Under the pieces are notes generated by a model. The model was not told where the DNA came from, did no database searches, and worked only from the letters and a program-made list of their open reading frames with translations. From Microbispora hainanensis (GTDB lineage Bacteria; Actinomycetota; Actinomycetes; Streptosporangiales; Streptosporangiaceae), in contig NZ_CP108086.1 of NCBI RefSeq assembly GCF_036186745.1, positions 1-64,000 on the forward strand: a stretch of DNA of 64,000 nt. Reading direction: 5' to 3'. Of this stretch, positions 407 to 49,546 are shown piece by piece; position 1 is the stretch's first letter, and every line of letters begins with the position of its first letter. The translations under genes were made by a program, and so were the position numbers.

Positions 407-5484
<5,078 letters not shown>

Positions 5485-47111: not shown

Positions 47112-47577
47112 TGGTGTCCCTTCTCCCTCATTTCAACAACGAATGCACCATCTCCCCCAGGAACGGTCAATCTCCGGAGTTTTCGGAAGTCCGGAATGTC
47201 GGGCCGGCTGAAAATGCGCCGAGCCGGGGGCCCGAAACGCACCGCCGGCCCGCCCGGATAACCGAAATCCGATATGCAGCGGATGATCGCAGAGATTTCA
47301 GGCACGATTCGGCGAAATGTTTCGAATGCCCCGCTCATGGTGATTTCCGGGTGGAGCCCGGTCTCTGAAAGTTTCAGAGCGTCGTCCGCCCACGACCACC
47401 GCGAAGCCGTCCGGCGCTCATGGTTCACCGCCGTTGCCGGGCCGCCCACAGGTGATGCGGGGCCGTGTGGAAGCCGTGCCGGACCGGGCGCAGGCGGCGA
47501 ACAGGCCGCCATCACGCCGGTCTTCGCCGTCGTCGGCCTTCACGTCACCAGGACCGTACGGCCCGGCGAGGGGATGC
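47112..47577. other. Intergenic region with a 17-bp palindrome
   Basis: No credible gene is seen in these 466 bases. A perfect palindrome CTCTGAAA-G-TTTCAGAG spans 47363-47379, and the left part is less GC-rich than its surroundings. The right part grades into GGGGATGCACG-type sequence related to the repeat around the insertion sequence. Confidence 0.6.
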
Positions 47578-47696
47578 ACGCCGGGAGGGTGGCCGTGGCC
47601 GTGGCCGTGGGGCTCGCCGGGCGGATGCGCGCCGCGATGTGACGAGTCGTATGGCACGGCAAGGGGATTGCACGCCAGGATGCGGCCGTGGTCGTA
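47578..47696. repeat. 119-bp direct repeat, left copy (putative target duplication)
   Basis: This 119-bp segment (starting ACGCCGGGAGGGTGG, ending GGCCGTGGTCGTA) is identical to 49360-49478 and directly abuts the left terminal inverted repeat of the insertion sequence. IS1634-type elements are known for very long, variable target duplications. Confidence 0.9.
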
Positions 47697-49359
47697 CCTG
47701 AGTTGGCTCAATTTAGTGCGCACCTTCGGGGCTGCGGATCCGCTTGAGGGCGTTGCGTAGGTCGGTGGGCAGAGGGTCGGCGGCGGTCAGGACGTGGTTG
47801 CCGGCTTGGATTCGGACGGTGCGATAGCGGCGGGCGGTGCGGACGAACTTCTTGATCGACCATCCGGTCCGTGCCTCGATCCACCGGCCGACCGCCAGGG
47901 CGGCGAACACGATCGTCAGGTGCGCGTCGATGGACTCGCGTTTGTGGTGGTAGATCGGCCGTGCTTTGAGGTCGTGCTTGCTCATCCGGAAGGACTTTTC
48001 GATCTCGAACAGCCGATGGTAGGAGCTGATGACGAACTCGGCGGTGATGGGCGTCCCGTCCGGGCAGGCGGCGAGATTGGTGATGTAGCCCTTGAGCCCG
48101 GCCAGGGCCTTGGCCTTGTCCACCAGCTCGGTGTTGACGCTCTTGGTAGCGCCGGACAGCCTGATGAACCGGTTGCGCTTGACCGGCGCCTGCCCGTCGA
48201 CGGCGCGCTGGGCCTTGGCGACCTGCTCGTCGATGCCGCGCAGGGTGCGCCGGGCCCGCTCTGCCCGGTACTGGTAGTAGATCATCTGGTCGCGGCGGGG
48301 CCGGCTCGATCCCGACGGCCAGGGCTGGATGAAGATGTGCCCGTCGGGGATCGGGGTGCCGGGGTGCTCGCGCCGCCACTGCTTGACCACATACGGCACC
48401 TCGGGGATCTTCATGCCGAGGATGAACGACAGCCCAGCGGCTTCGATGGCCTGCTTGTTCGCCTCGGAGATCATCCCGGCGTCGGCCACGATCGTGACGT
48501 CCGGCAGGTGGTGGGCCGCCATGAACCCTTCGATCACCGGGAGCATGGTGTGGGTCTCGGCCTTGTTGCCCTCGAAGGCGGTCACCATGAGCGGGAACCC
48601 GGAGGAGTCGGTGAGCAGCCCGATCGTGATCTGCGGGTCCAGGCGGCGTTCCTTGGAAAAGCCCGGCTCGCGGAACCCATCCCCGGCGTCGGTCTCGAAG
48701 TACAAGGTTGACACGTCGTAGAGGACCAGGCTGGCCGGCCCGAGGCGGGTGTGGGCCGCGCATGCACCGGCCAGGGCCTGGCGCCACTGCGGTGCGGCGT
48801 AGTCCGGCAGGCGGCGCTTCACCGTGGCATACGACACCGCATCGATCCCGGCCTCGCCGAGCACGCGCAGGCTGTCGTGCTTGCTCGTCGGTTCGATCAC
48901 CCGCGCGAGCACCAGCTGCCGGAACACCTCATCGCCCCCGGCCGCGGCAGCAAACCCCAGCGTGTCGTAGGCGCGGGACAGCGCGTCCCACAGGTGTTCC
49001 ATCCGCGAGCTGACGATCTCCAGCGGCCCGCCCGCCATCGGCCCATCGTCCAGCCCCAGGTCCAGTTCCTGCTGGCCGGCGGCCAGCCGCTGACGCGCCA
49101 CCGCCCTGAGCGTCTCCAACTCGGCGTCGTCGTGCGCCGACCCGATGTGCTCGATCTCCCGCGATCCGCGGCGGGAGGAGTAGACGATCTGCACCGCCCG
49201 GGCGCCTGAGGCCGTCTTCACCGTCCGCACGTACGGAGACACGGCCACCAGGGTAGAGACATGATCGATTTAGTGCGCACTTTTCGCCGTTCCCGACGGG
49301 GAACCACGAGGTCAACGCCTCGCGCTCAGCGACAATCTTGAAACGTGAGCCAAGTCAGG
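47697..49359 (-). mobile_element. IS1634-type insertion sequence, 1,663 bp
   Basis: The ends are CCTGAGTTGGCTCA (47697-47710) and TGAGCCAAGTCAGG (49346-49359), a 14-bp terminal inverted repeat with one mismatch. One transposase gene fills the element. A 13-bp direct repeat ATTTAGTGCGCAC lies inside both ends (47711-47723, 49268-49280). The element is complete and flanked by a 119-bp perfect repeat, so it is probably a recent insertion. Confidence 0.88.
47713..49248 (-). CDS. IS1634 family transposase
   Basis: A 511-residue DDE transposase of the IS4-like superfamily. The acidic triad is probably Asp in VLYDVSTLYFE, Asp in TIVADAGMIS and Glu in FEIEKSFRMSK. The N-terminus (VRTVKTASGARAVQIVY, then EHIGSAHDDAELE) and the C-terminal HHKRESIDAHLTIVFAALAV are typical of IS1634 transposases. 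It starts at GTG 49248 and ends inside the left subterminal repeat. There is no frameshift or internal stop, so it looks active. Confidence 0.93.
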   Translation of the reverse strand: MAVSPYVRTVKTASGARAVQIVYSSRRGSREIEHIGSAHDDAELETLRAVARQRLAAGQQELDLGLDDGPMAGGPLEIVSSRMEHLWDALSRAYDTLGFAAAAGGDEVFRQLVLARVIEPTSKHDSLRVLGEAGIDAVSYATVKRRLPDYAAPQWRQALAGACAAHTRLGPASLVLYDVSTLYFETDAGDGFREPGFSKERRLDPQITIGLLTDSSGFPLMVTAFEGNKAETHTMLPVIEGFMAAHHLPDVTIVADAGMISEANKQAIEAAGLSFILGMKIPEVPYVVKQWRREHPGTPIPDGHIFIQPWPSGSSRPRRDQMIYYQYRAERARRTLRGIDEQVAKAQRAVDGQAPVKRNRFIRLSGATKSVNTELVDKAKALAGLKGYITNLAACPDGTPITAEFVISSYHRLFEIEKSFRMSKHDLKARPIYHHKRESIDAHLTIVFAALAVGRWIEARTGWSIKKFVRTARRYRTVRIQAGNHVLTAADPLPTDLRNALKRIRSPEGAH

Positions 49360-49478
49360 ACGCCGGGAGGGTGGCCGTGGCCGTGGCCGTGGGGCTCGCC
49401 GGGCGGATGCGCGCCGCGATGTGACGAGTCGTATGGCACGGCAAGGGGATTGCACGCCAGGATGCGGCCGTGGTCGTA
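49360..49478. repeat. 119-bp direct repeat, right copy
   Basis: Identical base for base to 47578-47696, it starts immediately after the right terminal inverted repeat. Removing the element and one copy restores a continuous sequence leading into the tandem repeat at 49489. Confidence 0.9.
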
Positions 49479-49488
49479 GGCCACGGGC

Positions 49489-49546
49489 GGGCGGATGCAC
49501 GGCGCGGTGACGACAGCGGGCGGATGCACGGCGCGGTGACGACAGC
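49489..49546. repeat. 29-bp tandem repeat
   Basis: Two exact 29-bp copies (GGGCGGATGCACGGCGCGG.., 49489-49517 and 49518-49546). A diverged version (GGGCGGATGCGCGCCGCGATG) lies within both 119-bp repeats, so the insertion sequence entered a local minisatellite-like tract. From 49547 to the WYL gene I see only a possible -10, TATTGT, near 49672. Confidence 0.8.

Follow-up and report, generated by a model that had tools for sequence, protein, structure and literature searches.

Background

Most DDE transposases duplicate a fixed number of target bases, the length being held because both ends of the element join the target in one rigid complex. The locus described here, in the chromosome of Microbispora hainanensis, raises the question of how an insertion sequence (IS) can come to lie between two identical copies of a sequence as long as 119 bp. 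The window, by which we mean the whole stretch of DNA that was analysed, comprises 64,000 nucleotides (positions 1 to 64,000 of contig NZ_CP108086.1).

The family table in PMC2266710 gives IS1634-family elements a size of 1500-2000 bp, ends starting in C and a target duplication of 5-6 bp, and the same paper names IS1549 of Mycobacterium smegmatis and IS1634 of Mycoplasma mycoides as atypical, with repeats of 8-514 bp. The long variable duplications of these two elements were first published in 1998-1999 and are known to us via that paper, according to which, in 2008, they still lacked any proposed mechanistic model (PMC2266710). In the excerpts available, ISGka5 of Geobacillus generated 6 bp (PMC8024623), and a legend for Acidiphilium gives three 6-bp sequences termed inverted repeats (PMC4549789), which we take as flanking duplications because the Acidiphilium multivorum plasmid copy in our own survey has 6 bp; these two elements belong to the same family as the one in the window, but their duplication is short and fixed. 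The accessible parts of PMC3053259, PMC11004492, PMC6114881 and PMC11708052 hold no repeat-length data on the family. Among the matches listed in our literature search (titles and abstract openings, few of them from subscription journals), none maps the duplication habit on a tree or describes a footprint for each end.

Results

The element (47697..49359, on the minus strand, which is that of its transposase) measures 1663 bp. Its left terminal inverted repeat, CCTGAGTTGGCTCA (47697..47710, plus strand), and its right one, CCTGACTTGGCTCA as read on the minus strand (49346..49359), are identical at 13 of 14 bases; both ends start with CCTGA, and the size and the initial C agree with the family table (PMC2266710). 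The open reading frame at 47713..49248 (minus strand) encodes a transposase of 511 aa with the Pfam domain DDE_Tnp_1, whose catalytic triad (D178, D256, E417) aligns with that of the IS1634 family and which scores 366.3 bits against the family model NF033559 over residues 29-505 (cut-off 100). The flanking sequences at 47578..47696 and 49360..49478 (both plus strand) are identical over their 119 nt, start to start 1782, and the left copy has an A at its junction end. The initial annotation had described a 1,663-bp IS with imperfect 14-bp ends, an intact transposase and exact 119-bp borders, and all of this is confirmed.

Judged from the list of open reading frames, the element appears to lie between genes. 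Two further repeat pairs are present in the intergenic target region (47555-49544), one of them degenerate and the other a perfect 29-bp tandem (49487-49544), and the sequence of this region differs strongly among species of the genus.

Copies of the element were sought in the 8.8-Mb single-contig genome, and the ends and both flanks of each copy were compared. The chromosome carries 12: eight are full-length at 100% identity (with equal score), one is full-length at 97%, and three are interrupted. Direct repeats lie flush with the ends of all 12, their lengths being 5, 19, 26, 55, 103, 119, 127, 149, 163, 279, 567 and 579 bp; the initial annotation had named the other copies in the genome as a check, and what they carry is repeats of differing length, not a short fixed one. 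The pairs are perfect at 11 of the 12 copies. The exception (L034, near 1.935 Mb) has 127-bp repeats that differ solely in one run of three adjacent bases, which looks like a single multi-base change. When left and right flanks of different copies were mispaired as a control, a repeat of at least 5 bp was found in 1/132 pairs and one of at least 10 bp in 0/132, which excludes a chance origin of the flush repeats. The copy near 3.769 Mb (L030) is 97% identical to the others, yet is bordered by a perfect 103-bp repeat, which suggests that this variant arrived separately.

The three interrupted copies (L027, L028 and L029, near 1.296, 5.866 and 1.890 Mb) contain a nested IS630-like insert (Pfam DDE_3) of 1,157 bp, at the same site and with the same ends, the copies of which are not letter-identical. 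The insert cuts the transposase frame down to 475 codons, a loss of 36. Since these copies lie in three different targets, with repeats of 19, 279 and 149 bp respectively, the 2,820-bp compound of IS and insert must be mobile and have moved more than once; such movement would call either for help in trans or for a transposase able to work without its tail.

Empty versions could be found for three of the occupied sites; each lacks the IS and has the repeat sequence once. The 163-bp site, which reads as lying within a transposase gene, is matched by another copy in the same genome over 247 bp across both borders, ungapped and at 99.2%. The 55-bp site lies in a multi-copy transposase-like gene, of which two checked paralogues match 195 bp at 100% and ungapped, besides further full-length matches, and the 103-bp site is empty in another species of the genus (202 bp ungapped, 88.6%). 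The window's own 119-bp site was not recovered in its empty state: the relatives compared are without the IS and the stretch is not conserved in them (one 40-bp match at 80%). For two further sites, no spanning match was present among the matches listed.

The duplication lengths fit an exponential distribution (Kolmogorov-Smirnov p = 0.87 for the 12 own copies and 0.38 for 44 pooled lengths, which omit insertions found later) and a lognormal one as well (p = 0.69 and 0.95), the parameters of both having been estimated from the same data. Lengths of exactly 5 bp occur in 2/16 copies of two long-type elements, with p = 0.004 under one geometric law. The lengths show no helical phasing.

Relatives were surveyed by the same reading of ends and flanks. 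Within Actinomycetota, long repeats were found in Micromonospora (124 bp), Trebonia (151), Dietzia (58), Actinomyces oris (56), M. riyadhense (608), R. rhodochrous (93) and R. ruber (224), and in genome G076 (64, 128 and 365 bp, and once 5 bp). They occur also in Bacteroidota (Persicobacter, 33 and 406 bp), Campylobacterota (Aliarcobacter, about 680 bp with one mismatch), Bacillota (Carnobacterium, about 309 bp, with a break of about 115 bp in the left copy; Ligilactobacillus, 13 bp) and Mycoplasmatota, where two elements of Mycoplasmopsis gallopavonis stood in for IS1634 (43, 53 and 255 bp for one; 50, 108, 125 and 400 bp for the other). The long habit is thus present in five phyla, three of which are represented by one or two insertions each. 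Fixed short repeats were read in G441 (5 bp at 5/5 full-length copies), G132 (5 bp at three copies), G164 (6 bp at three copies) and G302 (5 bp at five of six full-length copies, the right end of the sixth being about 1.7 kb off), and also in Geobacillus, Alicyclobacillus and others. On contig 1 of G441 (L304, about 916750-920120), two copies of the 5-bp type follow each other head to tail with 87 bp between them, one flanked by the 5-bp repeat CCCGA and the other by TCTGT. None of the relatives sought in viral contigs was confirmed.

The habit follows the phylogeny of the transposase. On a tree of 53 transposases, unrooted as to which habit came first, four changes of habit are needed versus about 17 with shuffled labels (0/500 shuffles as low), and well-supported branches force three of the four. 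A branch with 100/99 support separates 14 tips, all short (5-6 bp), from a part with 31 long tips (13 to about 680 bp) and eight 5-bp tips in nested groups; the 5-6 bp tips thus belong either to the other half of the family or to these groups. The window element stands in a group with 100/100 support whose nine tips are all long. Opposite habits also occur among close relatives: the transposases of R. rhodochrous (93 bp) and R. ruber (224 bp) are 74-76% identical to that of R. jostii (5 bp, one copy read). Both our trees (39 and 53 tips) take in loci whose repeat could be determined and whose reading frame is usable, and leave out those that have no repeat, have a truncated frame or run into the end of a contig. 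A single insertion each represents R. jostii, Microbacterium, G404, G492, G478 and G581. The 53-tip tree should be read with its long end branches (L138, L173 and L181), the meeting of two long short-type branches and the odd composition of 11 rows in mind.

At some loci both ends of an element are present and no repeat is flush with them. The long-type part of the family has at least 18 such distinct loci (among them L042, L046, L047, L048, which is the same as L282, L059, L167, L172, L189, L254, L258, L261, L274, L278 and L292), and in Mycoplasmopsis 3/10 full-length copies are of this kind; the short half has them too (e.g. L120, L122, L124 and L125). The long-type loci, like the Mycoplasmopsis copies, may be deletions, rearranged copies or the result of decay. 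One of the long-type loci, L167, is on the Corynebacterium faecale plasmid NZ_CP047205.1, where two IS1634-family transposase genes bracket two SMR transporter genes along with a TetR-family regulator, a layout resembling a composite transposon. A 2.9-kb relative (about 1651-4549), about 97-99% identical across the genera Kibdelosporangium, Amycolatopsis and Actinomadura, carries two passengers, a gene of the Glyoxalase family and an alpha/beta-hydrolase-like frame that falls just short of its Pfam cut-off. They sit between two left ends, an outer one and an inner one that has an extra base. Among the nine passenger elements with both ends, five have repeats (L036, L052, L054, L061 and L063, with 20, 60, 49, 31 and 14 bp), and four have no flush repeat (L038, L040, L050 and L057, counted within the at least 18).

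The junctions themselves were compared in the main actinobacterial clade. Its 5-bp relatives (15 insertions) use targets near a TCNGA palindrome, with 28/30 ends carrying C at -4 and G at -2 and 22/30 carrying A at -1; the two ends of each 5-mer are mirror images. The set of long repeats comprised 38 insertions (11 own, 27 elsewhere), i.e. 76 junctions read from -15 to +10. In the pooled set, solely -1 (A, 52/76, p = 2e-30) and -5 (T, 29/76, p = 6e-5) survive correction for 25 positions. The T at -5 is enriched in both subsets, at 9/22 junctions of the window element (p = 0.007) and 20/54 of the other elements (p = 6e-4), and a four-letter test at this position passes correction in neither subset alone (p = 3.2e-3 for the other elements). 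The 54 junctions of the other elements, taken alone, have a C at +1 that passes correction (30/54, p = 1.3e-3), perhaps because the elements begin with C and some ends are possibly set one base off. In a control with fixed register and local composition, T stands at -5 in 24/54 junctions having A at -1, compared with a flank frequency of 15% (p = 2e-7), and -3 follows as the offset with the next smallest p (0.02); an error in the end register of L255 is corrected in this control, while it stands in the tree, the 5-bp target counts and the pooled 25-position test. With T at -5 and A at -1, every long-duplication junction resembles one side of a symmetric 5-bp target of its own. As a statistical property of the set, the T-NNN-A pattern that marks a staggered 5-bp target thus recurs at each junction separately.

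Several candidates for what sets the habit were rejected. The stretch Q-x-x-L-D-[LF] near residue 59 is present in 13/13 of the long-type tips first examined in the main actinobacterial clade and is altered in the first 5-bp sister pair. It resembles a clamp-binding peptide. The sliding clamp as determinant nevertheless fails, as the stretch is kept in G441 (5 bp at all of its full-length copies), G404 and G581; moreover, the accessible part of PMC4549789 presents a clamp-binding member of the family with 6-bp sequences flanking its copies. Nor is the end sequence the determinant, since CCTGACTCGTGCC opens the elements of G302 and G581, which make 5 bp, as well as that of G076, which makes long repeats. 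Residue 423, which in the window transposase adjoins the conserved lysine 424, is the only position to stand out in the main actinobacterial clade (S in 22/22 long tips, A in six of the eight 5-bp tips); as a single-residue signature it fails across the family despite this trend, and we regard it as a weak lead to the coupling of the ends.

Discussion

We think that the feature in the window is a recent insertion of an IS1634-family element with an IS1549-like habit, by which 119 bp of target were duplicated, and would put the probability of this reading at roughly 90%. The IS is a new member of the family. The 5-6 bp duplication of the family table is found at one of its 12 copies (5 bp), the other 11 having 19-579 bp; we do not treat this length as family-defining, since PMC2266710, in the part available, itself names IS1549 and IS1634 as atypical and since 31 of our 53 tree tips are long. 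The variable lengths among copies that mark the long-duplication group (IS1549/IS1634-like) are present, with 12 lengths at 12 copies. The likeness to IS1549 is drawn from its description (PMC2266710): it too is an actinobacterial member of the family that makes long repeats on insertion, and it differs in host and copy set. IS1634 of M. mycoides, again compared by description (PMC2266710), shares the family and the long variable repeats and belongs to a different phylum.

That the 119-bp repeat is a long target duplication had been proposed in the initial annotation, and is supported by the flush variable repeats at every copy and by the three sister sites that are single-copy when empty; its claim of a recent insertion fits the complete identity of the two repeat copies. 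The alternative starts from a 119-bp tandem duplication that was already there and that the IS then entered, either by inserting between the two units or by recombination. The presence in the intergenic region of a degenerate repeat pair and of the 29-bp tandem pair speaks in its favour, as does the failure to recover an empty version of the window's own site in the relatives compared. It would hardly account, however, for 12/12 copies with repeats flush to the IS ends and all of different length, for three sites that are single-copy when empty, or for the 0/132 mispaired flanks with 10 bp or more, and we consider it largely refuted and most improbable. How a long target duplication arises is a harder question. 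A single complex that cuts with a very wide stagger, the width being loosely controlled, is verbally the simplest answer, and the 5-6 bp members of the family do cut with a fixed stagger; yet neither the 5-bp footprint at each junction nor lengths from 5 to about 680 bp lacking a helical phase are expected of one rigid complex, which makes this answer improbable.

Two separate junctions of the 5-bp type and a broad range of lengths would also be predicted if, behind a replication fork, the two ends joined different sister arms, the left end one and the right end the other at a different place, the duplication then being carried by the surviving chromosome. The long-type loci with no repeat could be the deletions that such an insertion into sister duplexes should leave; its geometry, however, gives deletions as often as duplications, and repeats are found at all 12 own copies, at 4/4 full-length copies in G076 and at 2/2 in G372, and we consider this sister-duplex insertion rather unlikely, though a serious rival. 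Since each junction has a 5-bp-type target of its own, the duplicated stretch is best viewed as the gap between two separate target engagements. The reading that we prefer, at somewhat less than even odds, is therefore that the two ends are joined in separate reactions, each to a 5-bp-type site of its own and with a directional opening of the target, and not in concert with a fixed 5-bp stagger.

On this preferred reading of separate joining, no single complex of fixed 5-bp stagger would hold both ends, each of which would take its own 5-bp-type site. The first strand transfer would leave a free target 3'-OH, from which strand-displacing extension, or else unwinding the same way, would open the target DNA on the side where attack by the second end yields a duplication, not a deletion; this directional step is a hypothesis drawn from strand polarity, the free 3'-OH presumably pointing into the stretch whose second-strand attack duplicates. 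The length of the duplication would be that of the stretch opened before the second end joins; exponential lengths would be expected if the second joining had a roughly constant rate during movement along the DNA, and both ends at the same site would give an ordinary 5-bp duplication, as in 1/12 own copies. The long-type loci with no repeat and the Mycoplasmopsis copies of the same kind weigh against the directional step. More tentatively still, we suggest that one half of the IS1634 family transposes by two separate joinings at their own T-NNN-A sites with directional opening between them, the concerted 5-bp reaction being the ancestral or fallback mode and having been regained several times.

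The initial annotation had also proposed that the unusual mechanism is shared across phyla. This holds for the outcome; it is not new, since IS1549 and IS1634 were already reported and Mycobacterium, the host of IS1549, is itself actinobacterial (PMC2266710, as far as its text is accessible). What is added here is the mapping of the habit on the transposase tree and the separate 5-bp footprint at each end. The puzzle of the long duplications has thereby become testable, with a habit that passes down along with the transposase, is found in five phyla and has opposite states in close relatives, and with a 5-bp mark at each end. As up to several hundred bases of host DNA are copied per jump, such insertions are relevant both to annotation and to repeat-mediated recombination. 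If the ends are indeed uncoupled, this would be a route of DDE transposition in which they are joined independently, and the comparison of closely related transposases of the long and the 5-bp type would reveal the residues responsible for their coupling.
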